Assembly (NCBI GenBank): GCA_947505245.1
Contig: CANNIZ010000023.1
Location: forward strand, 1-64,000
Direction of reading: 5' to 3'
From: Pseudomonadota bacterium
GTDB lineage: Bacteria > Myxococcota_A > UBA796 > GCA-2862545
Length of the DNA: 64,000 bases
The notes under the pieces were generated by a model that ran no database searches, had not been told where the DNA came from, and was given only the letters and a program-made list of their open reading frames with translations. Within the stretch, counting starts at the first letter, position 1; every line of letters starts with the position of its first letter. The position numbers and the translations under genes were made by a program. This document shows positions 7,696 to 60,060 of the stretch, piece by piece.

Positions 7696-7708
7696 GGAGT
7701 ATTCGTCC

Positions 7709-8797
7709 TCATTCGGGCTGGATGCCCCGGAACCAGCGGTCGAGCAGCGGGTAGAAAAGCTTCGGGCCGGCCGACGACACGACCACGCCGATGTGTCCGG
7801 TGGGCAACGTCACCGACTTCGCGTTGGCGCCGATCGCGTCCACCATCGGAAGCACCGCCTCCTTCGGGGAGATGAAGTCGCCGTCACACGCGACCACCAG
7901 CGTGCGGCACGCGATGGCCGACAGCAGCACCGGCTGGCCCCTGACCTCCCAGGTCCCCTTGGTGAGCCGATCTTCGTGGTACCCCATCTTTACGAACTCC
8001 TTGGCGAACGCGCCGGTCATCGGCACGGTGTCGTCCAGCCAGACCTCGCGCGCGAGCGTCGACGCGAGGCGTTTGTGGTCCTTGGACGCCGCGTCCACGC
8101 CCTTGTTCTTCGTCCAGTTCCCCATCGGATCGAGCAGCCGGAACGCCGGCTTGAGCACGTCCACCGGGACGAGGCCGTCGCCGTCGATCGCCTCGTCCAC
8201 ATCCAGGTGCAGCACCAGGTCGCGAAACCGCCCCCCTTCGGAGAACTTCGCAGGCGCCGCGAGCAGGCACAGCGACGCGACGCGCTCCGGGCGCAACGCG
8301 ACGTACATCGCCGCGAGCGTGCCGCCCTGGCAGTAGCCGAACACGTGCGCCTGCTTCGAGCGCGCGTGGCGGCAGATCCGCTCGATGCTGCGATGCAGCA
8401 AATCGAGCAACACATACGCGACGTCTTCTGCCGCATCTTCGGGACCGGGGACGCCCCAGTCGACGAGGTAGGTCGGGTGCCCCTTTGCGGCGAGGGCTTC
8501 CACGACCGAGCGGCCCGGCTCGAGGTCGAGCACGTAGGCGCGGTTGATGAGGGACGGGATCAGCGCGACCGGCAGCGCGTCTCCGTCACCTTCGTAGTCG
8601 CCCGTCGGCGCGTAGTAGCGCACCACGAGCTTGTCGTGGGTGTGGATGATCTCGTGCGGCGTCTGCCCCACGGGCGGTCGCGGCGCTGTCGCAAGCACGA
8701 ACGCTCCGCGCCGGATGCGCTCCACCTCATCGAGGCCCTCGTACGGAGCGACGAGGGCGCCGACGAAGGCGAAGGGATCCGGCACGGCGCCTTTCAC
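7709..8797 (-). CDS. phaC: class III poly(hydroxyalkanoate) synthase PhaC, first paralogue
   Basis: This 362-residue protein starts with a GTG at 8797 inside a GTGA overlap with the upstream phaC. It has the PhaC lipase-like box with a Cys nucleophile, 'FGYCQGG' (Cys156), an Asp in 'VACDGDFISP' and a His in 'LPTGHIGVVVSS', the catalytic triad of PHA synthases. The length matches class III PhaC (about 355 residues), which normally works with PhaE. It polymerises (R)-3-hydroxyacyl-CoA into PHA on cytoplasmic granules. The N-terminal 'GQTPHEIIHTHDKLVVRYYAP' is the usual start of the class III core. It is clearly a paralogue of the gene directly upstream. Confidence 0.9.
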   Translation of the reverse strand: MKGAVPDPFAFVGALVAPYEGLDEVERIRRGAFVLATAPRPPVGQTPHEIIHTHDKLVVRYYAPTGDYEGDGDALPVALIPSLINRAYVLDLEPGRSVVEALAAKGHPTYLVDWGVPGPEDAAEDVAYVLLDLLHRSIERICRHARSKQAHVFGYCQGGTLAAMYVALRPERVASLCLLAAPAKFSEGGRFRDLVLHLDVDEAIDGDGLVPVDVLKPAFRLLDPMGNWTKNKGVDAASKDHKRLASTLAREVWLDDTVPMTGAFAKEFVKMGYHEDRLTKGTWEVRGQPVLLSAIACRTLVVACDGDFISPKEAVLPMVDAIGANAKSVTLPTGHIGVVVSSAGPKLFYPLLDRWFRGIQPE

Positions 8798-28682: not shown

Positions 28683-30518
28683 TCAGCCCCGGCGCGTCAG
28701 CCAGGCCGCCACCACGCCGACCGCGGCGGGCGTGACGCCGGGAAGTCGCTTCACCTGCCCCAGCGTGCGCGGCTGGGCCCGAGCGAGCCGCTGGCGCACC
28801 TCCGTCGACAGCGCGGTCAACGCGCCCCACTCCACGTCGGGGAGCACCACGTCATCCATCGACGCGTCCAGGCGCGCGCGCTCCTCGGCGCGCACGACGT
28901 AGCCCGCGTACTTCACGTCGATCTCCAGCTGAGCTGCCACGTCGACGTCGATCGGGGCGAGCCCGCCGAGCTCGGCGGCGACCGCGATCTCGACCTCGGG
29001 GCGGCGGAGGATCTCCGACAGCGTCGACGGGCGCCGCAACGGCACGAGCCCCTTCGCGACGAGGCGGGCGTTGGTCGCCGCGTCGGGCACGAGGGTGGTG
29101 CCGTCGAACGCCGCGCGACCGCGCTCGATCGCGTCCAGACGACGCTCGAACGCGGCCCACGTCGCGTCGTCCACCAGGCCGAGGACGCGGCCGATCGCCA
29201 TCAGCCGCCGGTCGGCGTTGTCCTCGCGCAACACCAGGCGGTGCTCCGCGCGCGACGTGAACATGCGGTAGGGCTCGCCGCCGATGCCCTTGCTGACGAG
29301 GTCGTCGAGCATCACCCCGATGTACGCCTCGCTGCGCTTCAACACGAACGGCGTGCCTGTCGCCGCAGAGACACCCGCGACGAAGCCCTGCGCAGCAGCC
29401 TCTTCGTAGCCCGACGTTCCGCAGATCTGACCGGCGAACCACAGCCCCGCGATGGCCTTGTGCGAGAGATCCGGCCCGAGCGACGCGGGATCGACGGCGT
29501 CGTACTCGACGGCGTAGCCGTAGCGCATCACCGCGACCTGCTCGAACCCCGGCACCGAGCGCAACATCGCGTCCTGCACATCTTCCGGGAGCGACGTCGA
29601 CAGGCCGTTCGGGTACACGGCGTGCGTGTTCAAGCCCATCGGTTCGACGAACACCAGGTGCCGATCGCGGTCCGAGAACCGCACGACCTTGTCCTCGATC
29701 GACGGGCAGTAGCGCGGACCCGTGCCCTCGATCGCCCCGCTGAACAGCGGCGACCGGTCGAGGCCACCGCGGATCGCCGCGTGGGTCGCCTCGTTCGTGT
29801 AGGTCATGCCGACGTCGATGTGGCCCAGCCGAGGCGCCGGGGCGGCCTCGAACGAGAACCGCCCGTCGGCGACCTCCTCCTGCTTCTCGATGCGGTCCCA
29901 GCCGATGGTGCGGCCGTCCAGCCGCGCCGGTGTGCCCGTCTTCAGGCGCAGGATCGGCAGCCCGAGGTCCTTCAAGTCGTGCGCGAGGCGATGCGCGGCA
30001 CCCTCGCCGACGCGCCCACCAGGCTCCTGATGAAGACCCCGATGCATCACAGCGCGCAGGAACGTGCCGGTGGTCAGGATCACCGCGGCGGTGTCGAGCA
30101 CGCGGCCGTCCGCGAGCACGACGCCCGTGATCGCCGCGTTTGCGATGCGCAGCGCGGTCGCTTCCGCCTCGACGATCGTGAGGCCTGCGATCGCGTCGAG
30201 CAGACCGGAGACGATCGCCGGGTATTGATCGACGTCCACCTGCGCGCGCGACGACTGCACGGCGAGGCCCTTGCGCGTGTTCAGGCGGCGGAACTGCAGG
30301 CAGGCGCGATCCGCGGCCCGCCCCACGAGACCACCGAGCGCGTCCACCTCGCGGACGAGGTGCCCCTTCCCCTGCCCGCCGAACGCCGGGTTGCACGACA
30401 GGCGGCCGATCGCCGCGCGGTCGAACGTGACGAGCACGGTGCGTCGCCCGAGGCGAGCAGCTGCGGCCGCGGCTTCGATGCCCGCGTGCCCCGCACCCAC
30501 CACCACGACGTCGTACAC
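28683..30518 (-). CDS. mnmG: tRNA uridine-5-carboxymethylaminomethyl modification enzyme MnmG (GidA)
   Basis: This 611-residue protein is close to the usual 620-630. The FAD-binding 'VVVGAGHAGIEAA' is at residues 5-17, followed by 'FDRAAIGRLSCNPAFGGQGKGHLVREVDALGG' (in pieces), 'LQFRRLNTRKGLAVQSSRAQ', 'RLKTGTPARLDG', 'AGLWFAGQICGTSGYEEAA', and 'MFTSRAEHRLVLREDNADRR', all family signatures. With MnmE it installs the cmnm5 group on wobble U34 of several tRNAs in the cytoplasm. No mnmE or rnpA is near, so the classic origin-proximal context is absent. It follows the DUF4399 gene by three bases. Confidence 0.97.
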   Translation of the reverse strand: MYDVVVVGAGHAGIEAAAAAARLGRRTVLVTFDRAAIGRLSCNPAFGGQGKGHLVREVDALGGLVGRAADRACLQFRRLNTRKGLAVQSSRAQVDVDQYPAIVSGLLDAIAGLTIVEAEATALRIANAAITGVVLADGRVLDTAAVILTTGTFLRAVMHRGLHQEPGGRVGEGAAHRLAHDLKDLGLPILRLKTGTPARLDGRTIGWDRIEKQEEVADGRFSFEAAPAPRLGHIDVGMTYTNEATHAAIRGGLDRSPLFSGAIEGTGPRYCPSIEDKVVRFSDRDRHLVFVEPMGLNTHAVYPNGLSTSLPEDVQDAMLRSVPGFEQVAVMRYGYAVEYDAVDPASLGPDLSHKAIAGLWFAGQICGTSGYEEAAAQGFVAGVSAATGTPFVLKRSEAYIGVMLDDLVSKGIGGEPYRMFTSRAEHRLVLREDNADRRLMAIGRVLGLVDDATWAAFERRLDAIERGRAAFDGTTLVPDAATNARLVAKGLVPLRRPSTLSEILRRPEVEIAVAAELGGLAPIDVDVAAQLEIDVKYAGYVVRAEERARLDASMDDVVLPDVEWGALTALSTEVRQRLARAQPRTLGQVKRLPGVTPAAVGVVAAWLTRRG

Positions 30519-30521
30519 GGA

Positions 30522-31007
30522 CTACTCGACGGTGAGCTTGATCGTGGCCGACCACGCGTCGCCGTACGAGAAGTGGTTCCCGTCCGCGAGCTGCAGCGTG
30601 AGCGTGTGCTCGCCGGGCGTGAGCACCACGTCGGTCTCGGTCTGGCCCTTGCCGAAGTGCTGGTGCGTGTCGTCCTTCGGCACGACCGATCCGGCCGGGA
30701 TTACGGCGCCGTCGATGATGATGTGGTGGTGGCCGGTGTTGGGGTCAGGCGTGCCGGCGGGGGCGACGGTGACGCCCTCGATGCCGAACTTGACGTGTAC
30801 AGGCGACTTCACCTTCGCGCCGTCCGCGGGCTCGACGAAGAACACGCGACCCGCGACGGTCGGCGGGGTCATCGGCGCGGCAGGTGGGGCCTCGGCCACG
30901 GGAGGGGCAGCGGGAGGCGGCGTCTCGGCCACGGGAGGGGCGGGCGGGGCTTCTGTGGGAGCAGACTCCCCCGAACACGCAAACAGGAACGCGAGCACGA
31001 TGGACAT
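30522..31007 (-). CDS. DUF4399 domain lipoprotein
   Basis: The 161-residue protein has signal 'MSIVLAFLFAC', then a Pro/Ala-rich linker of about 35 residues. The domain starts 'VFFVEPADGAKVKSPVHVKFGI' and contains 'GHHHIIIDG' and 'HFGKGQTETDVVLTPGEHTLTLQLADG', the DUF4399 signature, with a His cluster that may bind metal. GGAGG lies four bases before the ATG. It precedes mnmG by three bases; this pairing looks incidental. Function unknown, location periplasmic or surface. Confidence 0.88.
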   Translation of the reverse strand: MSIVLAFLFACSGESAPTEAPPAPPVAETPPPAAPPVAEAPPAAPMTPPTVAGRVFFVEPADGAKVKSPVHVKFGIEGVTVAPAGTPDPNTGHHHIIIDGAVIPAGSVVPKDDTHQHFGKGQTETDVVLTPGEHTLTLQLADGNHFSYGDAWSATIKLTVE

Positions 31008-44547: not shown

Positions 44548-45524
44548 CCGCGCTCTGGCACCTCTCCCGCCCCAAGCTGCTGCCGTTCGTCCTCCTGCTC
44601 GTGCTTTGCGGGTACGGCCTCACCCACTGGGACCGCGGCCTCGTCGCGCGGGGCGCGCCCACCCTCGGCCTCACGCTGGTGGCGTGGGCGCTGCTGCACG
44701 CCGGTACGTTGTGGCTCAACGCGGCCGTCGATCGCGACGAGGGGCCCGTGTTGTACGGCAAGGCCGTCGCGCCCCCGCCCTACGCCGCTGCAGCCGGCTA
44801 CGCGGCGCTCGCGCTGTGCGTCCTGATCGCGGCACTCGCGCAGCCGGCGATCGGCCTCGCAGCCTCCCTGTGTTCAATCCTCGCGATCGCGTACTCCCAC
44901 CCGAGCGCGCTCTGGAAGGGGCACCCGACCCTCGGACCCCTCGTGAACCTCGTCGGCTACGGGCTCCTGTCGCCCCTCGTGGGCTTCCTCGCCGTGGATG
45001 TCCCGCCCACGTGGCGGCTGTGCTTCGTGTGGGTCACCGGAGGCATCGGCGTGATGGGCGCGTTCTTCGCGGCCCAGGCGTTTCAACACGACGAAGACGC
45101 CGCCCGCGGCTACCGCACGTTCGTCGTCACACACGGCGCCGTCGCTTGCGTCCGCGCAGCGCGCCTCTGCATGGGCGTCGGCATGGCGGTCGGCATCACC
45201 CTCGCCGCCGTCGGCTGGGTGCCGCGCGTGTGCCTCGTCGCGCTGCCGGTCGCGCTGTGGGTGGACGCCCACTTCCGAACCTGGCTCGCCGTGCCCGGCG
45301 GAGGCGACGTCTCGCACGCGCGAACGCTCGTGCTCCGCCTGCTCGCGGGCGCGTTGATCGCCATCACCCTCTGCTTCGGCGACTACTTCTGGAACGACGC
45401 GCACGGGCTCCCCGTCGCGGGCCTCGGCACCGCCGCCGGCCACCCGCCGGATCGCCCGCTGCTCCCGCCCGGCGCGATGCGACGCTGGGAGGCCCAGAAC
45501 CACGGCATCCTCATCGCGCGGTAA
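44544..45524 (+). CDS. UbiA-family prenyltransferase-like membrane protein, second of a tandem pair
   Basis: The 326-residue protein parallels its upstream neighbour line by line: 'RPKLLPFVLLLVLCGYGLTHW', 'WLNAAVDRDEGPVLYGK', and 'FQHDEDAARGYRTFVVTHG'. It is a tandem duplicate with eight or so helices and a 35-residue extra hydrophilic C-terminus. ATGA overlap indicates coupled translation and perhaps a heterodimer. Like its partner it keeps 'DAARGYRT' and lacks the canonical NDxxD. Substrate unknown. Confidence 0.85.
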   Translation: MTALWHLSRPKLLPFVLLLVLCGYGLTHWDRGLVARGAPTLGLTLVAWALLHAGTLWLNAAVDRDEGPVLYGKAVAPPPYAAAAGYAALALCVLIAALAQPAIGLAASLCSILAIAYSHPSALWKGHPTLGPLVNLVGYGLLSPLVGFLAVDVPPTWRLCFVWVTGGIGVMGAFFAAQAFQHDEDAARGYRTFVVTHGAVACVRAARLCMGVGMAVGITLAAVGWVPRVCLVALPVALWVDAHFRTWLAVPGGGDVSHARTLVLRLLAGALIAITLCFGDYFWNDAHGLPVAGLGTAAGHPPDRPLLPPGAMRRWEAQNHGILIAR

Positions 45525-45532
45525 AACTCGGG

Positions 45533-45552
45533 TACGCTGTGCCCCTTGGGGG
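45533..45552 (+). promoter_or_regulatory. TACGCT box and Shine-Dalgarno of the beta-helix gene
   Basis: GGGTACGCT (box 45533-45538) is followed ten bases later by GGGGGA and the ATG at 45557. It belongs to the set of short-leader promoters described under findings. No clear -35 box is visible. Confidence 0.45.
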
Positions 45553-45556
45553 ATTC

Positions 45557-48010
45557 ATGTTGCTGTTGGCACTCGCCGCACCTGCGCTCGGAAACACGCT
45601 CACGGTCGGGCCGAGCATGACCTACACGACGATCGGCGCCGCCGTCACCGCCTCGGCGAGCGGCGATACGCTGCTGATCGAGCCCGGCACCTACAACGAG
45701 TCGGTGATCCTCACCAAGAGCCTCACGCTGCAGGGCAACGCCGGCGCGTTCAACATGGTCGGCACCGGGCCGCTGATCAACGCGAACGGCACGCCCACCA
45801 TCACGCTTCGCGACGCGCACCTCGACCCCGTCTCCGGGCCTGGGATCGACATGGACGGCGGCCTGATGACGCTCGAGCGCGTCACCGTGACCGACGCGAA
45901 GATCACCGTCGGCAACGGCGCCGCTCTACACGCAAACGGCGGAACCCTCGCCATCGTCGACAGCGTGTTCGACGGCAACGCCGCGTACGACGAGCAGGGC
46001 GGGCACCTGTACGCCGCCGACACGATCGTCACGATCAGCGGCAGCACGTTCAACGCCGGCACCGCTGAAAAAGGTGGGGCGATCTGGATGCTGCACGGCT
46101 CGCTCACGGCGACGAACACCACGTTCACGGGCAACCACGCAGACACCGGCACCGAGACCGGCCGCGGCGGGGCGATCCGCTCCCAGGAGGCCACGATAAC
46201 CCTCACCGGCTGCACGTTCGACGACAACGCCGTCGCAGGGGGCTACGGCGGCCACCTCTCGATGAACAACGGGTCGCTCACGATCGTCGACTCGACGTTC
46301 ACCGACGGCGTCGCCAACGGCGACTACGGCGGCGCGCTGGCGCTCTACCAGGCCACGGTCGCGATCACCGGGTCGACGTTCCGCAACAACCGCGCCCTCG
46401 CCGACGCGACGTTGGCGAACGGCCACGGCGGCGCGATCCTGGTGTACGGACCCATCCCCGGCGCGACGACGATCGACGACACGCTGTTCGACGGCAACAG
46501 CGCCGACGGCTACGGCGGGGCCGTTCGCGTGGAATCGGGTCCCGCGACGATCACGAACAGCACGTTCACGGCGAACCACGCGAACTACGGCGGCGGGCTC
46601 CACGCGCTGGCCAAGGCCCCGCTCACGGTGTCGGGCACGTCGTTTACGGACAACGTCGCCACCACCGCGGGCGGCGCGATTCGCTGGCGCCCGGACGACG
46701 CGACGATCAGCTTCACCCTCTCCGACACAACGTTCGACGGCAACACCGCGGGAGGCCCCGGCGGCGCCATCTACGCCACCGCCGGGGGTCCGCTCCTCGT
46801 CACCGACGCGGTGTTCACCCACAACACAGGCTTCCCCGGCGGCGGCATCGCAGTCAACAACCTGATCGACACCGACGTTCTGCGCAGCACGTTCTGTGGC
46901 AACCGCGCCGAAGGCACGTCAGGCGCCTACGGTGGCGCGTTCTACGGCTGGCAGACCGGCACCACCCGCCTCGCCAACGACACGTTCGTCGACGGCTTCG
47001 CGTCGGCGTGGGGCGGCGGCGTGTACGTGCAGGAGTCGTCGGGCAGCGTGATCGAGAACAGCGCGTTCCTGATGAACGACGCGAGCACCGGCGGCGGCGT
47101 CGGCTGGGTGTCGACGGTCGGCTCGTTCCGCAACAACGTCGTCCTCGGCAACACCGGCGACGGCGTCGTCGGTGGCAACGCCGCGTCCGCGACGTTCTCG
47201 TTCGACGTGTTCACCGACAACACCGACGACCCTGTGTCCGGCACGTTCGACGCCAAGGCCCTGTCCAACACCAACCTGATGGACGTCGACCCCGGATTCC
47301 AGGCGTGGAGCGACGACGGCGACTGCACGAACGACGCGCTCACGCTCAAACCGACGAGCCCGCTGCTCGACAAAGGCGACGCTTCCGTGCTCGACCCCGA
47401 CGGCAGCCGGAGCGACATCGGCCCGTACGGCGGCCCCGACGCCGACCCCGCTGCGTGGCTCGACACCGACGCCGACGGCTCCGCCGACCTGTTCGACTGC
47501 GCGCCCACCGACCCGGACATCTCGCCGCTCGTGGCTGAGGTCGCCTACGACGGCGTCGATCAGGACTGCTCGGGGGCCGACCTCACCGACGTGGACGGTG
47601 ACGGCTACGCCGGAATTGACGGCGGCGGGCAGGACTGCGAAGACGACGACGCGTCGGTCAACCCCGGCCTGGCCGAGGTGCCGTATGACGGTCTCGACCA
47701 GAACTGCGACGGGAAGGACCTCGTCGACGTCGATCAGGACGGCTACGTCGGCGAAGACGCGGGCGGCGACGACTGCGACGACCGGCACGCGGCGATCAAC
47801 CCCGGCATGACTGACGTTCCGGGCAACTTCGTCGACGAGGACTGCTCCGGCGCGGACGCGACCGGGGACGACGGGTTCGACACCGACGACACCGACACCA
47901 CCGGCGGCAAGACGTGCAACTGCGGCACGTCCGATCCGCGCGGCATCGGCGCGTTCGCGATCGCCGCTACCTGGCTGCTCGTCCGGCGGCGGCGCGCGCC
48001 GCGACCCTGA
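45557..48010 (+). CDS. right-handed beta-helix surface protein with MopE-like repeats and MYXO-CTERM-like tail
   Basis: This 817-residue protein has a short signal ('MLLLALAAPALG'). Residues about 25-600 form a parallel beta-helix with repeated units such as 'TISGSTFNAGTAEKGGAIWM', 'ITNSTFTANHANYGGGLH' and 'FDGNTAGGPGGAIY' (Thr/Asn/Gly ladders). After about 640 come three or four MopE-type units 'DGVDQDCSGADLTDVDGDGY', 'DGLDQNCDGKDLVDVDQDGY', 'VDEDCSG', which bind Ca or Cu in related proteins. It ends with a DTDDTDTT linker, 'CNCGTS', a helix and RRRR. Likely a long surface adhesin or polysaccharide-binding rod. The end overlaps a convergent gene by 44 bases. Confidence 0.9.
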   Translation: MLLLALAAPALGNTLTVGPSMTYTTIGAAVTASASGDTLLIEPGTYNESVILTKSLTLQGNAGAFNMVGTGPLINANGTPTITLRDAHLDPVSGPGIDMDGGLMTLERVTVTDAKITVGNGAALHANGGTLAIVDSVFDGNAAYDEQGGHLYAADTIVTISGSTFNAGTAEKGGAIWMLHGSLTATNTTFTGNHADTGTETGRGGAIRSQEATITLTGCTFDDNAVAGGYGGHLSMNNGSLTIVDSTFTDGVANGDYGGALALYQATVAITGSTFRNNRALADATLANGHGGAILVYGPIPGATTIDDTLFDGNSADGYGGAVRVESGPATITNSTFTANHANYGGGLHALAKAPLTVSGTSFTDNVATTAGGAIRWRPDDATISFTLSDTTFDGNTAGGPGGAIYATAGGPLLVTDAVFTHNTGFPGGGIAVNNLIDTDVLRSTFCGNRAEGTSGAYGGAFYGWQTGTTRLANDTFVDGFASAWGGGVYVQESSGSVIENSAFLMNDASTGGGVGWVSTVGSFRNNVVLGNTGDGVVGGNAASATFSFDVFTDNTDDPVSGTFDAKALSNTNLMDVDPGFQAWSDDGDCTNDALTLKPTSPLLDKGDASVLDPDGSRSDIGPYGGPDADPAAWLDTDADGSADLFDCAPTDPDISPLVAEVAYDGVDQDCSGADLTDVDGDGYAGIDGGGQDCEDDDASVNPGLAEVPYDGLDQNCDGKDLVDVDQDGYVGEDAGGDDCDDRHAAINPGMTDVPGNFVDEDCSGADATGDDGFDTDDTDTTGGKTCNCGTSDPRGIGAFAIAATWLLVRRRRAPRP

Positions 48011-51043: not shown

Positions 51044-51094
51044 CGCCGCGCGGTGAAATTGATTTGACGAGCGACAACACGTTGCAGGCCCGGC

Positions 51095-51118
51095 TACACT
51101 GGTCGCGCCGTCCGGAGG
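51095..51118 (+). promoter_or_regulatory. TACACT box and Shine-Dalgarno of the protease gene
   Basis: TACACT (51095-51100) is followed by GGAGG (51114-51118) and a TTG start at 51124. A TTGACG at 51064 is 25 bases from the box, too far for sigma70, and no better -35 is visible. Confidence 0.5.
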
Positions 51119-51123
51119 GGACT

Positions 51124-52269
51124 TTGACGTCCATCCTGTTTGCGATCTTCACCTCGTCGCCCGCCCTCGCAACCGTCCCCGCCGCGATCGCGCAGGGCCC
51201 GTCGACGTCGAGCACGCCGCCTACGGATTCGTCGGAGCTCCCGAGCCCGTACGTCCGCAGCTACGGGCGCCCTGCGCGCTGGCACCCCGTCGAGCACCAG
51301 CCCGCGGGCATCGTGAACGGCACCACGACCACGCAGTACCCGCAGGTCGTCGCCCTCGCAGCGCGCGACGGCAATGGCTACTACGACTTCTGCTCGGGCA
51401 CGTTGATCGCCCCGGAGTGGGTCATCACGGCCGCCCACTGCGTCGCCGCCTGGCAAGAGGACTATGCGGCCTTCACGCCGTATGTACTGTTCGGGAACGA
51501 CCTGTACAGCGGCGTGTTCGACGAGGTCCGCGTCGCCACGTACGCCAAACACTCGGGCTACAACACCACCAACCTCGCCCACGACATCGGCATCGTGCAC
51601 CTGCAAACGGCCGTCACCACGATCACGCCCATGGGCCTGAACAACGACGACGTCGCGTACTGGGGAAACCGCGAGCTCACGTACGTCGGCTTCGGGATCA
51701 CGGTCGACAACGGGACCGACAGCGGCACCAAGCGCACGGCGGACATCCCGTACGACGGCTACGACGACAACTTCGTCTACGGCTACGATCCGCAGCAGAA
51801 CGTGTGCCAGGGCGACTCCGGCGGCGCCGTGCTCGAGCACGTCGGCAACCAATTCGAGCTCGCCGGCGTGAACAGCTTCGTCTACTCGGACGACCGCGAC
51901 CCCACGCCCAACACGTCCTGCGTCGGCGGTGGCACCGGCGGCACGCGCATCGACGCGCACCTCGCCTGGATTGAGGGCTACACGCCGGTGAACACCGGCC
52001 CGGTGGACGGGACGGACGCGGACACGGACACGGACGCCGATTCGGACACCGACACGGACACGGACACCGATACGGACACCGATTCTGACGCGGACACCGA
52101 TTCGGACGCCGACGCGGATCAGAACCTGTTCAACCCGACCTGGGACGACCCCGCGCGGCCGCCCGAAGGCGCCTACGCGAACAAGGGCTTCGGCGCGTGT
52201 GACTCGTCGAGCGGGAGCCTCGCGCTGCTCGGCCTCGGCCTCGTCCTCGCGGCCACCCGGCGGCGGTGA
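51124..52269 (+). CDS. secreted trypsin-like serine protease with Asp/Thr linker and MYXO-CTERM-like tail
   Basis: This is a 381-residue protein. TTG at 51124 is chosen for its GGAGG five bases upstream and a signal ending 'SSPALATVPA'. 'VNGTTTTQYPQVVAL' is the mature S1 start. The triad is His105 ('ITAAHCV'), Asp154 ('AHDIGIVHL') and Ser232 ('CQGDSGGAV'), with Cys residues for disulphides. From about 300 to 345 comes a pure Asp/Thr/Ser/Ala linker, then a hydrophobic helix and RRR. It should be exported and tethered. The final TGA overlaps the GTG of the next gene. Confidence 0.9.
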   Translation: MTSILFAIFTSSPALATVPAAIAQGPSTSSTPPTDSSELPSPYVRSYGRPARWHPVEHQPAGIVNGTTTTQYPQVVALAARDGNGYYDFCSGTLIAPEWVITAAHCVAAWQEDYAAFTPYVLFGNDLYSGVFDEVRVATYAKHSGYNTTNLAHDIGIVHLQTAVTTITPMGLNNDDVAYWGNRELTYVGFGITVDNGTDSGTKRTADIPYDGYDDNFVYGYDPQQNVCQGDSGGAVLEHVGNQFELAGVNSFVYSDDRDPTPNTSCVGGGTGGTRIDAHLAWIEGYTPVNTGPVDGTDADTDTDADSDTDTDTDTDTDTDSDADTDSDADADQNLFNPTWDDPARPPEGAYANKGFGACDSSSGSLALLGLGLVLAATRRR

Positions 52270-52937
52270 TCCGAACGGCCGCACCCCTCGCGGTCGCTGC
52301 GATCACGGCGGTCCTGTTCCTGCTCCAGCCCGCCGGCTTCCCGCCGTCGTTCTGGGTCGTCGAGAAGGCCGTCCCCGCCGTGTGCCTCGCGTCGGTCGCG
52401 TTCCAGAACACGTCCGCGCTCGGCCGCCTGATCGGCGCAGGCCTGCTGTTCTCCGCTGTCGGCGACGTCGTCCTCGAGATCCCCGCCGACCTGTTCGTCC
52501 CCGGGCTGCTCGCGTTCCTCACCGCACACCTGTTCTACGTCGCCGCCTGGCTCGCCGACGATCGCGCTCCCAAGCTGTTCGTCGCGCTGCCGTTCTACGC
52601 GTACGGCATCGGCATGCTCGTGTACCTGCACGACGGCCTCGGCGACCTGTTCGTGCCCGTCGCCGTCTACGTCGCGGTGATCTGCACGATGTTGTGGCGC
52701 GCGTGGGCCCGCGTGTCGAAGGACTCCGACTGGACCGTGTTGGCCGGCGCGGTCGGGGTGATCGTGTTCGCGATCTCCGACTCCGCCATCGCGCTGAACA
52801 AGTTCCACGCGCCCACGCCGCACGCCGACCTGTTCATCATGGTCACCTACTGGCTCGGTCAGGCCGGGATCACCGCCGCCACCGCCAACATCAGCGCCGC
52901 CAACCTCACCGCCGACGGAACTCCACGGTCCCGGTGA
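52266..52937 (+). CDS. YhhN family lysoplasmalogenase-like membrane protein
   Basis: The 223-residue protein has about eight helices. It matches the YhhN/TMEM86 pattern: 'AGLLFSAVGDVVLEIP', 'FLTAHLFYVAAW' and 'VIVFAISDSAIALNKF', with the Asp-rich conserved residues. TMEM86 enzymes hydrolyse the vinyl-ether bond of lysoplasmalogens. GTG at 52266 overlaps the protease stop. Bacterial substrates are not established. Its end overlaps a convergent protease gene by 32 bases. Confidence 0.88.
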   Translation: MIRTAAPLAVAAITAVLFLLQPAGFPPSFWVVEKAVPAVCLASVAFQNTSALGRLIGAGLLFSAVGDVVLEIPADLFVPGLLAFLTAHLFYVAAWLADDRAPKLFVALPFYAYGIGMLVYLHDGLGDLFVPVAVYVAVICTMLWRAWARVSKDSDWTVLAGAVGVIVFAISDSAIALNKFHAPTPHADLFIMVTYWLGQAGITAATANISAANLTADGTPRSR

Positions 52938-53883
52938 ACCCGGCGGCCACGTCGGTCCACAGCCCGATGCGCACGGCCTGTTCGCGCGACGTCGTGTACC
53001 GCAGCGCCTGCCCGTCACAGGTCCACGCGATCGGCTTGCTGTCCGCGAGATCAAGCCCCGTCGGAGCCTCGTAGAACCCGTAACAGAGCCCGTCCGCAGG
53101 TCCGACGATCTCCAGGTCCGCCAGCGCTGGCACCTTCAAGTCCTCCCAGTGGGCCTTCCCGGGCGGCAGCTTCGCGTTGACGCTGCGCACATCGGTCCAA
53201 GGCTGCTCCTTCCGCCAGGTCGCGAGCGCGTGTCGCGGCCCGCTCGGATCGTACGCGTCGAGCGTGGTCGCGCGGTTCCAGCGCACGTCGCCCACCACCG
53301 TCGCGCCGCTCACCGCGCCGATCGCCACCGCCCGTTTTCCGAGCGACACGACGGGGCCGCCGCTCGAGCCCGCCGCCGCGACCGTGCCGTCGAACAGCCA
53401 GTACGGCCGATCCCGCACCGTGGTCTCGCCGACGACGTTGCCCGGACCGCAGACGTAGCCGACGTCTCCCGGAAACCCGGCCGCGATCACCGGCTGCCCG
53501 GGTCCCACGCCCACGCCGATCTTCAGCGGCGAGCCTGGCGTTCCGTCCGCGAGGATCAGCAGCGCGAGGTCTGACTCCGGCCACGCGATCACCTGCGCGA
53601 CGTCGCGACATCCGCTCGCTCCGCAGACCTTTGCCGCGTCGAGCCGCGCGACGACATGGTGGGCGGTGAGCACGGCGTCGGCGGTGACGAAGAACCCCGA
53701 GCCGCTGCGGAAGCCGGGCCGCACCTCATCTTCGACGCCGAGGAACACGTGCAGATCCCCGGTGACCTCGACCGCCGCGTCCCGGGCGACTGCACACGCC
53801 GCGGTCGCGTCGATCTCGCCCGCGCGCACCGGTCCCGCGAACGCGAGCGCGCCCAGGGAAGCCGCGACGAAGGCCGGGTTCAC
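52906..53883 (-). CDS. trypsin-like serine protease, exported
   Basis: This is a 325-residue protein. GTG at 53883 is chosen because it overlaps the upstream TGA (GTGA) and yields a signal peptide ('FVAASLGALAFAGPVRAG'). The triad is His76 ('VLTAHHVVA'), Asp in 'PESDLALLI' near 115 and Ser174 ('AAGSSGGPVVS'). Only the protease domain and a C-terminal extension of about 100 residues are present, with no PDZ domain, unlike DegP/HtrA. It is the last gene of the 57778-52906 minus-strand run. Substrates may be neighbours in the cassette; this is unproven. Confidence 0.88.
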   Translation of the reverse strand: MNPAFVAASLGALAFAGPVRAGEIDATAACAVARDAAVEVTGDLHVFLGVEDEVRPGFRSGSGFFVTADAVLTAHHVVARLDAAKVCGASGCRDVAQVIAWPESDLALLILADGTPGSPLKIGVGVGPGQPVIAAGFPGDVGYVCGPGNVVGETTVRDRPYWLFDGTVAAAGSSGGPVVSLGKRAVAIGAVSGATVVGDVRWNRATTLDAYDPSGPRHALATWRKEQPWTDVRSVNAKLPPGKAHWEDLKVPALADLEIVGPADGLCYGFYEAPTGLDLADSKPIAWTCDGQALRYTTSREQAVRIGLWTDVAAGFTGTVEFRRR

Positions 53884-55217
53884 TCGGACGGGCGCACCTC
53901 GACCAGGGTCACGCAGGGAGCCCCGTCCACACAGCGCTGCAGCGTGCGCACCGACACCGTCCGCGACGGGTCCGCGGGCATCACCCACGACTCCCCGCTG
54001 GCAGCCGCCTCGTCCGACAAGCTCTCAGCGGCCACCGAGCGGCGCGGGCGCGCGATCGGCAGGTCGAGGTGCGGCCGCCGCATGGTGCTCGCGAGCTCCA
54101 CCGCCTCGGTCTGCGCGACCCCGGCGACATCGTCACTGTCGCGCTCCTCGAGCACCGCGACCGCGCCGAGCGGCTCGCGTTCGAGCTGCGTCGGCGCGAG
54201 CTCTCCACCCCCGACCAGCGCCAACGCCGCGCCATTCGCGACGATCGCGTGGGTACCGTCGGGCAGCTCGACCGTGACGACGCCGGCGCCCCGGTTCGCC
54301 TCGACGGCCGCGACCAGCGCGAGCACGGAGGCATCGCTCGACACGAGCTCAGCGCGCCCGGCCCCGAGCGGCCACGACGTCGCGGTGGGCAGCAGGCCAG
54401 CGCCCGACGCGCGATCGGCCGACGCGAGGGTCGCGAACCGCACCGCAGCGGCCTCCCGGTCGTACACCGCCGGCGCGCTCGAGTACAGGATCGCCGCGTC
54501 GTACCGACCGAGCGGAGAGCCGAGCGCCTCGGCGCGCAGGAACGCCGCGAGTCCGTGTTTCACGTCGCCCGCGAGCACGTCGGCGACGCCGAGATCCACC
54601 TCGGCGAGCGCGCGAGCCTCCGGGGACCACGTCGGCATCGCGCGTTCGATCGCCGATCGGTGCGCGCGGAGGTCGGGGGCAGCCCCGCCCCAACGCGCGA
54701 TCTCGGCCTCTACGACGAACTGATCGAGCAACGCGCCGGGATCATCCGACAGCCGCACGGCGTGGTCGAACGCCGCCCGCGCCCGAAAAAGCTCGGCGGG
54801 AACCGTCGAACCGCCGCGAACGGCCGACGGCAGGTCGCCGGGGAGCGCGAACCCCCGCGCCAGCGCGCGCGGGACGTCTTCCGATGCGAGCAACGGGCCC
54901 GCCGCCAGCGCGCCGGCGGGATCGACGGCCGCACCCTGCACGCGCTCGAACGACGCCTGCGAGAGGCCGTACCGCGCGTAATACGACCCCATCCAGGTCA
55001 CGCCTACGGCGGCGGCGAGTTCCGCGTCCATCGGGTACGCGTCGGAGAGCGGGCTCGCGAGAGCGCGTGCGGCGTCGTAGTCGCCGAACGCGAGCGCCAA
55101 CCGCACGTCGCCGAGGTCGGCCGTGGGCTGCACGTAGTCGAAGGCGCGATCGCGCTCCATCGCCTTCGGCGAGGGATCGTCTGCAAATGCGGTCGCGGCG
55201 AGCAGGACGAGCATCAC
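53880..55217 (-). CDS. secreted helical repeat protein
   Basis: The 445-residue protein has a short signal ('MMLVLLAATAFA'). Residues about 20-270 are helical pairs of TPR-like spacing ('LALAFGDYDAARALASPLSD', 'HAVRLSDDPGALLDQFVVEAE', 'ARALAEVDLGVADVLAGD'). The rest is Ala/Val/Glu-rich with a Cys pair near the end ('LQRCVDGAPCVTLVEV'). It may be an assembly platform in the envelope. The ATGATG start leaves either Met possible. It precedes the protease with a GTGA overlap. Confidence 0.72.
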   Translation of the reverse strand: MMLVLLAATAFADDPSPKAMERDRAFDYVQPTADLGDVRLALAFGDYDAARALASPLSDAYPMDAELAAAVGVTWMGSYYARYGLSQASFERVQGAAVDPAGALAAGPLLASEDVPRALARGFALPGDLPSAVRGGSTVPAELFRARAAFDHAVRLSDDPGALLDQFVVEAEIARWGGAAPDLRAHRSAIERAMPTWSPEARALAEVDLGVADVLAGDVKHGLAAFLRAEALGSPLGRYDAAILYSSAPAVYDREAAAVRFATLASADRASGAGLLPTATSWPLGAGRAELVSSDASVLALVAAVEANRGAGVVTVELPDGTHAIVANGAALALVGGGELAPTQLEREPLGAVAVLEERDSDDVAGVAQTEAVELASTMRRPHLDLPIARPRRSVAAESLSDEAAASGESWVMPADPSRTVSVRTLQRCVDGAPCVTLVEVRPSE

Positions 55218-55281
55218 GCCTCCGCACCGACAACGGGGAACACGGGCCCGCGCTTACAGGCGCGGCGCGTCGAACGCGCTC

Positions 55282-56187
55282 TCACGCCGCCTTGAAGCCG
55301 CAGATCTGGCACTGACCACCAGCGGCCGCGCCCTGGCGGGAGCGGTAGCAGCCCGAGTGGAACACGCGTCCACACTTGAACATGCAGTCCTGCTTGACCT
55401 CGATGTCGATCACCTGGTTGCAGATCGCGCATACGAGCGCCGCGGACGCGTCTTGCGTCTGCATCTTCGCGATCTGCACCGTCTCCCGCTTGATCGGCTC
55501 GACCGCGCCGAACCACGCGAGCCAGGTCGTGAGCACGGCGCCGAGGCCGAGAAAGAACGCCGGTACGACGGCGATCGCCAGCGTCTTCGGGTCGACCCAC
55601 GCGATGATCGCCGGCGGGATCACCGCGATCATCGTGAACATTCCGAACACCACGACGGCGGTGCCTGGGATGCGGAACTGGTTGCCCGCCCCGCCCCACA
55701 CGTGCCGCGAGAACGACGTGCTGATCGTCGCGAGGCCGAGCCCGGGCAGGATCCCGGCGAGCGGCGTAGGGTTGACCATCAGCAAAAGGCCCCACAGCAC
55801 CGACCAGATCAGCAGCCCGAACAGGGTGGAGATGACGTTGACCCAGCCCGCGCCGGCGTACCCGTGCATCTCCGGGTATTCGGGCGGACGCTCCGCCAGC
55901 GCCGAGCCGATCGGCGGCTGCGGCAACAGGTGCAGGAGCTCGCCTGGCACCGGCTGGAAGATCTCGAGCTTCTCGTCGTCTGTGACGACGCGACCGCGCG
56001 CGCGAAGCCAGAACAGCCGCCGCGTGCCGTCTTCCCAGTAGGCGCCGAGCCCCGCGTCGCGCGCGACGCGCTGCGTCAGGTCACGCGCGGGGAGGTACGT
56101 CGGCAGGACGAGATCGAGCGCGAACGGCTCCATGTCGATGACCTGCACGCGGACCTGGACTGTCTGGGCATCACCCGGCGGCATCAT
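55282..56187 (-). CDS. ubiquitin-like domain-transmembrane-RING-like zinc finger protein
   Basis: This 301-residue protein begins with a ubiquitin-like (YukD/EsaB-type) beta-grasp, residues about 9-90: 'VQVRVQVIDMEPFALDLVLP' then 'DLTQRVARDAGL' and 'LRARGRVVTDDEKLEIF'. Three or four transmembrane helices follow (118-139, 175-197, 203-226; perhaps one near 143-158). The end is a cross-braced-looking zinc motif: Cys253, Cys256, Cys268, Cys272, His277, Cys280, Cys293, Cys296. This looks like the prokaryotic RING family that I remember as membrane-linked. The ATG overlaps the fusion gene's stop. Role inferred: a membrane-bound scaffold or ligase-like factor. No E1, E2 or JAB gene is visible in the window. 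Confidence 0.75.
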   Translation of the reverse strand: MMPPGDAQTVQVRVQVIDMEPFALDLVLPTYLPARDLTQRVARDAGLGAYWEDGTRRLFWLRARGRVVTDDEKLEIFQPVPGELLHLLPQPPIGSALAERPPEYPEMHGYAGAGWVNVISTLFGLLIWSVLWGLLLMVNPTPLAGILPGLGLATISTSFSRHVWGGAGNQFRIPGTAVVVFGMFTMIAVIPPAIIAWVDPKTLAIAVVPAFFLGLGAVLTTWLAWFGAVEPIKRETVQIAKMQTQDASAALVCAICNQVIDIEVKQDCMFKCGRVFHSGCYRSRQGAAAGGQCQICGFKAA

Positions 56188-57536
56188 GACGGAACAAACC
56201 CCTGACGAGGGGGAGAGCCTACCACGCGTTCAGCGACCACGACCACGTTCGTGGCCGGCCATGGCAGCGGGCCGCCAGCGGCGTCGAACAGCGCGACCGC
56301 GCCCTCGTAGCGGTTCGCGGCGATCCACCCGTTCACGTAGCCGTGCAATTCGCGGAGCAGGAACCCGTGGCGCTCCACCATCACCTTCCATTCTTCCAGC
56401 GAGAACGTACCGAACTCCTCGTGAACCTCGATGTGCCAGTTCTTCTGGTAGTCCTTCTTGCAGAGGAATTCGTTCGCGAGGTGCGCGGAGAGCACGACGT
56501 CTTCGCCCTCCCACGTGTGAGCCGCCCCTTCGCCGTGCTTGAACTCGCGGGCGAACCGCTCGAAACACGCGCGCACGTCGGGCCGCAGGAACCGCATCCG
56601 CCAGGCCTGCCGCCCCGGCGACACGCCGTCGCGCACGATCAAGCGCCCACCCGGCGCCAGCTCGCGGAACGCGGACGCGAGCGCCTTGTCGACCGCCGCC
56701 TGCGAGTAGCCCGTGTACGTCCAGATCTCGTGCACGATCGACGACAGCACGATCGTCGTCGCCGTCCCCTCGGCCACCACTGCGTCCCGCGCGTCCTTGT
56801 GCACGAACGCGACGTCGTCGGCGAAGTAGGTGTTCTCGTCGCACCGCCGCAGGAACTCCTGCGACAGATCAACGCCGACGAAGCCGCTTTTGGGGAACCG
56901 CCGCGAAAGCTCGACGAGCAGCTTGCCGGTGCCGCACCCCTTGTCGATGATGCAGCCCGGGACGACCCAGGGGAGCACGTCCTCGAGCTTCTGCGCGAGG
57001 GCCGCGTCCATCTGGGCGCCGTAGCTGTCGAAGTCGCGCGCGTGCGCGAGCTCGCCTTCCGTGTTCACGAGCGAGCGGGCGATGATCGCGCGGATCCCCT
57101 CGACCTCTGGCCGCAGCACGTCCGCGATCGCGAGCGGAACCGACAGCTCCCACGGCCGCCCGGCGACCATGTCCTCGAGCACCTCAGCGGGGGTCTTTCC
57201 AGCGACCTCGGGGACCGCCACGGCGACCCCGCGGGCCGCGAATTGCGGCGCGAGATCCCGGTTCGCGGTGACGACGCAAACGTCGCCCGACACGGCCGCG
57301 AGCACGGCGTCGACCCAGCGGGCGTCGTCGGTCAGGTCGGGCAGGCGAACGATCGTGGCGTCCGGCCGAACCGCGAGGATCTGCCGCTCCCGCACGTCCG
57401 CCGCGAGCGGGTTCCGCCGCGTCCCCGCGCGATCCGACGCACACAGCACCACGACGGCCGGACCGGGCGCCCCGCGGAGCATCGCTGCGAGGCCGTTCGT
57501 GACCACGTGAAAGCGGCCAGGAAGGACGCTCGTCAC
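56184..57536 (-). CDS. nucleotidyltransferase-like domain fused to SAM-dependent methyltransferase
   Basis: This 450-residue protein has an N-terminal cytidylyltransferase/NMNAT-like stretch: 'GRFHVVTNG' (7-15), aligned to the HxGH-type start of 'GRFQPFHLGH', then 'RRNPLAADVRERQI'. The (H/T)xGH motif is Thr-Asn-Gly-Leu, so the last His is lost. A helical bridge covers about 110-190. Then a class I methyltransferase: 'CIIDKGCGTGKLLVEL' (196-211), 'FVGVDLSQEFLRR', 'VLSSIVHEIWTYTGYS' and 'FRELAPGGRLIVRDGV'. GTG at 57536 overlaps the upstream TGA. Substrate unknown; it could be a small molecule made or recognised by the first domain. Confidence 0.8.
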   Translation of the reverse strand: MTSVLPGRFHVVTNGLAAMLRGAPGPAVVVLCASDRAGTRRNPLAADVRERQILAVRPDATIVRLPDLTDDARWVDAVLAAVSGDVCVVTANRDLAPQFAARGVAVAVPEVAGKTPAEVLEDMVAGRPWELSVPLAIADVLRPEVEGIRAIIARSLVNTEGELAHARDFDSYGAQMDAALAQKLEDVLPWVVPGCIIDKGCGTGKLLVELSRRFPKSGFVGVDLSQEFLRRCDENTYFADDVAFVHKDARDAVVAEGTATTIVLSSIVHEIWTYTGYSQAAVDKALASAFRELAPGGRLIVRDGVSPGRQAWRMRFLRPDVRACFERFAREFKHGEGAAHTWEGEDVVLSAHLANEFLCKKDYQKNWHIEVHEEFGTFSLEEWKVMVERHGFLLRELHGYVNGWIAANRYEGAVALFDAAGGPLPWPATNVVVVAERVVGSPPRQGFVPS

Positions 57537-57778
57537 GGCGTGGACACGTCGCACACGAGCCCGTCCACGTCGTCCTGGTCCTGTTGATCTTCGAGCGCGA
57601 CGGTGCACTGGTCCTGAACCGACGGCGACGCGTCCGCGTAGGTGGCCGTGAGCTCCGCGCAGTCGACCTCGGCGTGGCAATCGCACATGTAGGCGACGTA
57701 GTCGTCGCACGGGTTCACAGGCTCGTCGCAGGCCACGAACCCGACCACAACCAGAGCCAACCCGACGATGCGATGCAT
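57533..57778 (-). CDS. small Cys-rich lipoprotein
   Basis: The 81-residue protein has signal 'MHRIVGLALVVVGFVAC' and six further Cys residues ('NPCDDYVAYMCDCHAEVDC', 'DQCTV', 'LVCDV'). The Cys spacing suggests a disulphide knot or a metal site. It leads the five-gene run that includes the RING-like protein. TACGAT at 57799-57794 and GGAGG at 57787-57783 precede the ATG. No family recognised. Confidence 0.78.
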   Translation of the reverse strand: MHRIVGLALVVVGFVACDEPVNPCDDYVAYMCDCHAEVDCAELTATYADASPSVQDQCTVALEDQQDQDDVDGLVCDVSTP

Positions 57779-57833: not shown

Positions 57834-58682
57834 ATGTCCCTGGTCCTGTTGCTGCTCGCGTGCCACCGCGCCCCGCCGCCGGCGAACCCCGAATTCACCG
57901 ACGCCGTCAAGCAGACGTTCGTCGCGTTCGACGCTCCGAACGTGGAGATCGCGTACGCGATCCGCGCCCTGGAAGGGGTCGTGACCGACGGCTCGCTCGA
58001 CCTCACCAGCAACAACAGCCTCGACCGCAGCTTCGCGCCCGAAGACCTCACAGAGTCCGACGTCACCGGCTTCACGCACCCGGACGTGCCCCCCGAGGGC
58101 GCGCTCCCCGTCGCAGTCGTGGGCCTGTCGCCGTTCCCGTTGGAGGATCACCAGCACATCCAGCTCCTCGCGGACCAGACGCCGGTGGAGCCGTACTCGC
58201 CAAACACGTACGTGCGCACCTTCCTGGACGGCGACGACTGCTGGATCGACCACACCTGCGAGCGGCTGGAGACGTCGAATTCGCTCGTGAAAGAGAACAT
58301 GCTCATGACGGTCCCGTACGACTTCATGAAGACGTTCCGGTGGATCGACCTCAACCTCCCCGACCCCGCCGACGTTCCCGCGGACACCGAGGCCCCCACC
58401 GTCTCCGCCGATCCGCGCTGGTGCTACATCGCGCGCTCGTGGCAGGAGGACAGCTTCATCGGCGACGGCGGCGATACCACGCTCGTGCAGAGCTACACGA
58501 TCGAGGTTTGGTACCCGCACGAGGAGACCGGCGGCGTGATGCGCGCGTTGTCCGTGTGGTCGCAGACGGACCTCAGCATCAACGTGTCCGACGACATGAT
58601 CGCGGGCACGATCCGCATCGGCGTGGACGACAACTTCAAGGCCGGCGACCAGTGGCTCGAGGACAACTTCGGTCAGCCGTAG
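57834..58682 (+). CDS. lipoprotein of unknown function
   Basis: The 282-residue protein has signal 'MSLVLLLLAC'. The body is soluble with motifs such as 'IEVWYPHEETGGVMRALSVWS' and 'WCYIARSWQEDSF', which suggest a beta-sandwich. Cys pairs ('DDCWIDHTC') may form disulphides. No family recognised. It overlaps the convergent chrA gene by ten bases at the 3' end. Confidence 0.75.
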   Translation: MSLVLLLLACHRAPPPANPEFTDAVKQTFVAFDAPNVEIAYAIRALEGVVTDGSLDLTSNNSLDRSFAPEDLTESDVTGFTHPDVPPEGALPVAVVGLSPFPLEDHQHIQLLADQTPVEPYSPNTYVRTFLDGDDCWIDHTCERLETSNSLVKENMLMTVPYDFMKTFRWIDLNLPDPADVPADTEAPTVSADPRWCYIARSWQEDSFIGDGGDTTLVQSYTIEVWYPHEETGGVMRALSVWSQTDLSINVSDDMIAGTIRIGVDDNFKAGDQWLEDNFGQP

Positions 58683-59992
58683 CCGAGCGCCCACGCGAGC
58701 AGTCCGCTCCCCGCAGCCCCCGCGAGCACCGCCGGCAGCGGCGCATGAAATCGCAGGATCGCCACCGCCGACGCGATCGCGATCCCACACGCGACGACGT
58801 CGACCGCGCCGTCGTGCACGAGCACGTGCATCCCGAACCACAGCGCGAGGTTCGCGATCACGCCAACCACCGCCGCCGTGATCGCCGACAACGCCGCCGT
58901 GAGCGACCGCTTCCCGCGCAGCGCCTCGACCCACGGCGCCCCGACGAAGATCCACAAGAAACACGGCGCGAACGTCACCCAGGTCGTCAGCGTGGCCCCC
59001 AGGAAGCCCGCGAGCAGCGGGGACATCGACCCCGGGTTGCGGGCCGCGGCAAGGAAGCCGACGTACTCGACCACCATGATGAGCGGCCCCGGCGTGGTCT
59101 CCGCCATTCCGAGCCCGTCGAGCATCTCGGGCGGCGTGAGCCAGTGGTAGTTCTCGACCGCCTGCTGCGCGATGTACGCGAGCACCGCGTAGGCGCCGCC
59201 GAACGTGACCACCGCCGCTCCGCTGAAGAACAGCGCGATCCGCGTGAACACGTTCTCCCGCCCCAGCACAGCCCACAGCGCGCCGACCGGAGCGAGCCAG
59301 ATCACCAGCCAGATCGCCGCCGTCTGAAGGGCACGGCCGACCGACGGCCGCGCGTGCTCCGGCACCTGCCGATCGAGCAGCGCGTCGATCACGCCGACCT
59401 TCCCCTCGGGTGGTTTGACCACCACGAACCGCTCGGGCCACACACGACCGCCGAACAGCCCGATCGCCCCCGCCAGCACGACCACGAGCGGGAACGGCGC
59501 GTGAAACCCCGCCAGCGCGATGAACGCCCCGACCGCGAGCGCGACCATCACCGGGTTCTTGAGCACGCGCTTGCCGATGCGCACGATCGCCTCGATCACC
59601 ACAGCGAGCACCGCCGCCTTCACCCCGAAAAGCGCGGCCCCAACCGCTGCGACGTCGTGAAACTCGAGGTACACCGCTGAGAGCGCCAGCAGCGCGACAT
59701 ACCCGGGCAACACGAACAGCCCGCCCGCGACGAGCCCGCCGGGGACGCCGTGCAGGAGCCAGCCGATGTACGTCGCCAATTGCTGGGCTTCCGGGCCGGG
59801 CAACAACATGCAGTAGTTCAGCGCGTGCAGGAACCGATCCTCCCCGATCCAGCGCTTCTCCTCGACGAGCGTCTTGTGCATCACCGCGATCTGCGCGGCC
59901 GGCCCGCCGAACGAGTTCAGCCCGATGCCCGCCCACACGCGCGCCGCCTCACCGAATGAGACGCCATGATCCTCGTCACCCGAAACCTGCAC
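58673..59992 (-). CDS. chrA: chromate efflux transporter family protein ChrA
   Basis: This is a 439-residue protein. GTG at 59992 is chosen because GGAG is five bases upstream; an ATG at 60043 would add 17 residues without a Shine-Dalgarno. The two homologous CHR halves are visible: '[20 protein letters not shown]' with '[16 protein letters not shown]' in the first, and '[15 protein letters not shown]' with '[19 protein letters not shown]' in the second. The family exports chromate, though many members probably move other oxyanions such as sulfate. It lies beside aspS in a divergent arrangement. Confidence 0.93.
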
Positions 59993-60060
59993 GCCCGCTC
60001 CAAGACCGTCCGCGAGTATCCCGCCGACGCTCGGGTTACGCATGCAAAGGAGGAGGAAAC

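Follow-up and report, generated by a model that had tools for sequence, protein, structure and literature searches.

A predicted membrane protein that unites a ubiquitin-like domain with a zinc finger is genetically linked to contractile injection system genes in an uncultured Myxococcota-like order

We analysed a window of 64,000 nucleotides (positions 1 to 64,000 of contig CANNIZ010000023.1, assembly GCA_947505245.1), in which an earlier reading made from the letters alone, hereafter the sequence-only reading, had described a five-gene cassette centred on a membrane protein with a ubiquitin-like N-terminus and a RING-like zinc motif. The open reading frames (ORFs) confirm five co-directional genes on the minus strand at 52906-57778. 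The central protein, which we call U, is the subject of this report; it is restricted mainly to one uncultured, Myxococcota-like order, and its gene is found in representative loci beside the genes of a contractile injection system (CIS). U and its parts lie as follows:

55282..56187, minus strand: U, a 301-residue protein made of a ubiquitin-like domain (UBL), four predicted transmembrane (TM) helices and a C4HC3 zinc finger (profile searches, alignment, structure model)
55921..56163, minus strand: the UBL (beta-grasp) domain, residues 9-89 (structure model)
55516..55845, minus strand: four predicted TM helices, residues 115-138, 142-164, 172-194 and 200-224 (structure model and hydropathy)
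55300..55431, minus strand: the C4HC3 zinc finger, with ligands C253, C256, C268, C272, H277, C280, C293 and C296 (family alignment)

The structure model of U shows a confident beta-grasp ubiquitin fold. Searched alone, U stays below the cut-off of Pfam YukD (E 0.02, 16.1 bits, cut-off 27); in the family alignment of 109 sequences, YukD finds a match (E up to 0.1) in 102, the best at 6.5e-10. Profile and model together uphold the ubiquitin-like N-terminus. A crude hydropathy count gave four hydrophobic segments in 50 of the 109 family proteins, three in 42, five in 11, two in 5 and six in 1. Seven of the eight zinc ligands are kept in 109/109 sequences and C293 in 108/109, with one gap. The RING-like motif thus stands as an eight-ligand finger but not as a RING: the PHD C4HC3 spacing fits 107 of the 109 sequences, while the RING-HC, RING-H2 and RING-CH spacings fit none (0/109 each). 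Pfam zf-RING_2 likewise falls short with U alone (E 0.079, 13.7 bits, cut-off 27.3) and finds 96 of the 109 family members at E up to 0.1, with 1.2e-4 as the best value. Judged from the alignment, the finger is of PHD-type C4HC3 ligand order and not a canonical RING. A scan of the window's genome with the Pfam RING model PF13639 gave no match, in a run in which no control responded. None of the listed VIA structure matches of U aligns over the finger, the list being filled by UBL matches, and the top Foldseek match, Ebola VP30 (TM-score 0.19), was judged spurious. U matched none of the models of known defence systems; a phage or plasmid home was rejected, there being no match in either collection.

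We then mapped the distribution of U. A search of contigs with a single U sequence as query returned three loci. U was found in 53 of 58 genomes searched and in 58 of 63 genomes of the order (own genome included in both), a few of the latter matches being partial at contig ends. The phylum searches covered a sample of 377 genomes with six candidates scored per genome; there, the 314 genomes outside the order gave two weak partial U matches, and Cis13-like matches (E up to 0.001) occurred in 81 of the 377.

In representative loci, U comes after a run of genes for a CIS tube/LysM protein (CIS_tube 9.7e-25), a Phage_GPD spike, gp25, Baseplate_J and Tail_P2_I proteins and then a 311-residue protein closest to NCBIfam CIS13_fam (7.7e-13, 48.4 bits against a cut-off of 370, hence below it); genes for the gp19 tube, the sheath and Pvc16_N lie further along. 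The sheath, gp19 tube, Pvc16_N, LysM tube, GPD spike, gp25, Baseplate_J and Tail_P2_I families all exceed their Pfam cut-offs, and TIGR02243 exceeds its own; the CIS12 and CIS13 families remain below theirs. The Cis13-like match lies at most 150 bases from the U match in 32 of the 53 U genomes and on the same contig in 38. Counted by locus, a Cis13-like gene stands upstream of U on the same strand in 28 of 41 loci (the window being one of the 41); in four further loci a gp25-like match is found upstream of U at a distance of 5-27 bases and in two at 2-3.2 kb, and the last seven, which include the window, have no CIS gene nearby. Across the 58 genomes, U and Cis13-like matches occur together in 51, U alone in 2, a Cis13-like match alone in 1 (a fragment) and neither in 4, giving a Fisher p of 1.7e-4 if the divergent Cis13 of genome G017 (29% identity) is counted as absent and of 0.003 if it is counted as present. 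The two genes also occur together in genomes in which they are not linked. In G017, a diverged U-like UBL-membrane ORF directly follows the diverged Cis13 (UBL profile 0.0024; hhalign over the UBL, probability 86); it has three hydrophobic segments and half a finger. Of 21 Cis13-like proteins, 3 contain a stretch whose hydrophobicity (1.84-2.1) would suffice for a membrane helix, the other 18 having none above 1.8. A profile search of the PDB did not return Anabaena Cis13, its sole match being the N-terminus of All3314 (E 0.053).

The genome of the window has its Cis13-like gene on another contig, C3, at 29627-30559, where sheath, tube, gp25, Baseplate_J and spike genes form one cluster (gp19 named by its own match, the other families by homologues in G013). 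Because this CIS lacks U while G001, a genome of the same genus, keeps U 47 bases from Cis13, the U gene was most likely relocated in the window's lineage.

Other genes were seen at these CIS loci. On contig C3 (G000), 25395-26222 (L104:395-1222) encodes a protein with an eCIS_core domain (1.5e-7), about 3.4 kb from the Cis13-like gene and likely CIS-associated. Downstream of U, many loci carry a pseudokinase-like family (L067:12429-14633 and relatives; Pkinase in 13/13 at E up to 0.1), whose HRD and DFG motifs look degenerate in the sequences displayed, followed by a transglycosylase-like gene and a Ser/Thr kinase-like gene, possibly a CIS signalling module. The signal for a UBL at the pseudokinase C-terminus is weak (YukD in 1/13; hhalign probability 20) and we do not claim one; an FHA domain suspected by eye in the transglycosylase-like protein is not listed by Pfam.

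Outside the order, the place of U is held by an operon. We compared 12 Cis13 neighbourhoods, 11 from outside the order and that of G017. In four genomes of the same class, from sister families (G064, G068, G069 and G070), Cis13 is followed by an E1-like gene, a gene for a multi-TM Cys/His-rich protein, a UBL gene and an E2 gene; the other seven neighbourhoods outside the order gave no match to the operon profiles. In three genomes, the E1 gene begins 44-110 bases after Cis13 and overlaps the gene of the multi-TM protein, there with four helices (4-TM), by 8 bases, and gaps of 116-138 and 51-69 bases follow, all on start codons that we chose. Pfam recognises ThiF (4.6e-39) and UQ_con (2.6e-7) in G068; the UBL of G070 reaches YukD at 1.2e-4, below the cut-off. 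The E2 profile, built from the same four genomes, retrieves eukaryotic E2s from the PDB (best 6.4e-8), and the HPN...C active-site motif is present in 6/6 operon E2s as well as in the E2 of G064. Strong E2 matches (E <1e-85) occur in 7 of the 377 genomes, namely the four profile sources and G065, G066 and G067; of the 8 genomes of the class that fall outside the order, 7 thereby have the operon-type E2. The operon E1 gave only partial matches to E1-E2 and BilD defence models. The stand-alone UBL is the most conserved part, with a mean pairwise identity of 91% (range 79-99, untrimmed ORFs L150, L151, L152, L174, L175 and L176), against 75% for E1, 77% for E2 and 62% for the 4-TM protein. Six operon UBLs end in RLVMEHIPA and that of G064 differs; none ends in glycine, which speaks against ordinary conjugation. 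The contigs of G065 and G066 end inside E1, and G067 carries the four operon genes with no CIS gene within 19 kb, so that the CIS link holds in four of five informative loci. Another ORF, in L158, gave a RING-profile match at E 0.022.

The membrane part of the 4-TM protein is matched by the U profile in G068, G069 and G070 (4e-6 to 9e-5), and the 4-TM proteins of G066 and G067 at 8e-10 and 4.3e-6; hhalign aligns U with the 4-TM protein at probability 92. The multi-TM protein of G064 has three hydrophobic segments, is not matched by the U profile and resembles the other 4-TM proteins only at the finger (hhalign probability 45), but its UBL is matched (7.4e-6). In the 63 genomes of the order, no strong operon-type E2 was found, the one weak match being in G056 (3.2e-4), which is also the only one of the 58 genomes with a UQ_con match; the window's genome, 94.6% complete, has neither UQ_con nor an operon-type E2 among the six candidates scored. 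The sequence-only reading had seen no conjugation enzymes beside U and had preferred an adaptor role to a classic conjugation pathway; the former is borne out and the latter we judge right. G056 itself carries, on contig C156 (L177) at 1936-7748, a separate YukD-type UBL (4e-12), an E1-like protein in two ORFs (3.2e-64 and 1.8e-13) and an E2 fused to tetratricopeptide repeats (TPR).

On balance, we consider it somewhat more likely than not that U serves as an inner-membrane docking and regulatory factor of the CIS and that it arose when the UBL of such an operon fused with its membrane zinc-finger protein. U looks like two of the four components joined in one protein, because the operon occupies the same place outside the order and its E2 was not found, as a strong match, inside. 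In the simplest account, the CIS of the class originally came with all four components, the two enzymes included; within one order, the ubiquitin-like part and the zinc-finger membrane part would have merged into U while E1 and E2 disappeared, a direction that we infer over fission and gain. Since the number of helices is even, both termini of U would be cytoplasmic, where the UBL and the zinc finger may bind the CIS baseplate (its Cis13-like, gp25-like or Baseplate_J protein), and U may keep the tail at the membrane and take part in gating its firing. Without E1 and E2, the UBL would act in cis by binding its partner non-covalently; a similar role has been proposed for YukD of type VII secretion. 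U has the architecture of a membrane adaptor and is likely a non-catalytic membrane docking factor, the docking being suggested by gene linkage.

Several observations weigh against this interpretation. Firstly, as regards the CIS link, U and the Cis13-like gene are on separate contigs in 13 of the 53 U genomes, that of the window included, and two U genomes (73 and 83% complete) have no Cis13 match; the Fisher test ignores relatedness and uses hand-compiled lists; the three Cis13-like proteins with a hydrophobic segment imply that Cis13 might anchor itself; and G067 implies that the operon is not tied to a CIS everywhere. Secondly, as regards the fusion, the 4-TM protein of G065 and the multi-TM protein of G064 are unmatched by the U profile, the fingers of U and of the 4-TM protein do not align, the match between their membrane segments could in part reflect hydrophobic composition, and the UBL of U aligns weakly with that of the operon (hhalign probability 11). 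Thirdly, the loss of E1 from the order is a presumption, no E1 search having been made across it.

A bolder version extends to the operon itself: E1, E2, the near-invariant UBL and a membrane zinc-finger ligase might tag or gate their own docked CIS, a system that would have collapsed in the window's order into one fused docking protein without chemistry. We hold this only tentatively, and would sooner expect it to fail than to stand.

Membrane attachment has been described for other CIS. In the thylakoid-anchored CIS of Anabaena, according to PMC8894136, a helix of Cis13 itself is the membrane anchor at the baseplate; docking by U would likewise anchor the baseplate, with the difference that here most Cis13-like proteins lack a strong segment and U is encoded next door. 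Streptomyces CisA, as described in PMC12237407, is a membrane protein encoded with the CIS, needed for firing and outside the purified particle; unlike U, it has a single helix, a largely unstructured cytoplasmic N-terminus and a periplasmic C-terminal domain. The putative membrane anchor Hbor_38620 of a haloarchaeal CIS/type VI secretion system (T6SS), as reported in PMC11566945, resembles U in having several helices and a cytoplasmic domain and in lying near core genes in a subset of CIS clusters; it differs in being archaeal, with six helices and a cytoplasmic domain of about 150 residues, a comparison made by description and not by sequence. The main text of PMC11566945 mentions neither ubiquitin nor zinc. 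As for the operon, Bil attaches a UBL to the phage tail fibre, a distant cousin of CIS, and both Bil and the archaeal Ub/E1/E2/srfp operons are, like the sister operon, sets of UBL, E1 and E2 (with or without RING); the accessible text of these reports (PMC12948488, PMC5654768) describes no tie to a CIS, and the sister operon has a multi-TM protein and a UBL without C-terminal glycine. Among the literature records listed, drawn mostly from outside subscription journals, none dealt with a UBL or a RING finger as part of a CIS.

The adjacency of U to baseplate genes would also be expected if U were a membrane-attached assembly factor, a chaperone for the CIS baseplate outside the docked machine. 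We think this rather unlikely: a tail chaperone would not usually be expected to have four membrane helices or a conserved zinc finger, and where other CIS are bound to membranes, the attachment is through membrane proteins or helices (PMC8894136, PMC12237407 and PMC11566945). Less probable still is an E3-like ligase role for U in the membrane, of the MARCH type, with E1 and E2 supplied from other loci of the genome. The conserved eight-ligand finger and the E1, E2 and UBL genes beside a multi-TM Cys/His-rich protein in sister families argue for a ligase; against it stand the ligand order, which is not that of a RING, the absence of UQ_con from the window's genome, its single occurrence among the 58 genomes being in G056 with the separate UBL/E1/E2 set, and the lack of a strong operon-type E2 in the 63 order genomes. 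It is very improbable that U belongs to a type VII-like, EccD-like secretion apparatus and not to a CIS. Foldseek and VIA do list EccD of ESX-3 (Foldseek also that of ESX-5), in which a UBL is joined to membrane helices; the VIA match, however, has a root-mean-square deviation of 11.3 over 165 residues, and the conserved neighbours of U are CIS genes. EccD/YukD proteins are not known to have a zinc finger. In actinobacteria, EccD/YukD (EsaB) of type VII secretion has a UBL fused to membrane helices as U does, but with about 12 helices instead of 4 and in a different machine; PMC1779556 describes YukD as a protein that is not conjugated and that may serve in assembly or as a structural component.

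The sequence-only reading had assigned U, as an adaptor, and its four neighbours to a single envelope system, perhaps for quality control or targeted proteolysis. The neighbours are:

57533..57778, minus strand: 81-residue Cys-rich protein with a lipobox-like N-terminus, by eye
56184..57536, minus strand: fusion of an NMNAT-like and a methyltransferase domain (NT-MTase), a neighbour in the window's genome and outside the conserved system
53880..55217, minus strand: TPR-like protein (TPR_19 0.025, weak and below the cut-off)
52906..53883, minus strand: trypsin-like peptidase (Trypsin_2 1.3e-15, Pfam)

The four-base overlaps noted between these genes (GTGA for lipoprotein/NT-MTase, ATGA for NT-MTase/U, GTGA for TPR/protease) and the single gap of 64 bases, between U and the TPR gene, are confirmed, and suggest co-transcription in the window's genome. 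The protease was identified correctly; the lipoprotein exists as an ORF whose lipoprotein look is by eye only, with no Pfam match at E up to 1; the methyltransferase half of the fusion is clear (Methyltransf_25 2.7e-12) but its N-terminus resembles NMN adenylyltransferase only below the cut-off (NF002243, E 5e-5), as the TPR protein resembles TPR_19. None of the four neighbours was matched in the U loci of 40 relatives (8.6-20 kb), nor were two flanking genes (the chromate transporter and 52266-52937); the lipoprotein and protease genes were searched for within those loci. Genome-wide, the TPR gene has a homologue in 0 of 57 other genomes; the NT-MTase search gave some methyltransferase match in 35 of 58 genomes, own included, nearly all generic, and its only matches beyond 1e-20, other than the gene in the window itself, were in G001 and G014, confined to the methyltransferase half and on contigs other than that of U. 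We therefore rejected the cassette as a conserved unit after these homologue and neighbourhood searches: homologues of U occur without the other four genes nearby, which tells against the cassette and not against the U protein, and a joint envelope system, largely refuted by the same absences, deserves hardly any credence. The lipoprotein, NT-MTase, TPR and protease genes would be private neighbours of the relocated U gene.

Elsewhere in the window, 58673-60043 encodes the chromate transporter homologue (Pfam 1.1e-74), and the C-termini of a trypsin-like protein (51064-52269) and of a long repeat protein (44606-48010) resemble, by eye, what we take to be MYXO-CTERM Cys-hydrophobic-Arg sorting signals.

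For membrane attachment and firing of CIS other than the T6SS, the three published cases considered here (PMC8894136, PMC12237407, PMC11566945) each use a different protein. In seamount Myxococcota, eCIS (extracellular CIS) clusters are reported in metagenome-assembled genomes (MAGs) mostly of the uncultivated UBA796, and two MAGs express gp19 more than any other gene (PMC11937823, whose main text mentions neither ubiquitin, YukD nor zinc). Our guess is that these MAGs belong to the U-carrying order; if they are the same group, the CIS tube gene of the order may rank among the most transcribed at sea. U offers a conserved candidate for how such systems attach and fire in a large uncultured order, linking ubiquitin-like pathways with phage-tail-like weapons, two fields that seldom meet, and the passage from four separate genes to a two-part fusion would provide a natural series for probing ubiquitin folds beside conjugation.

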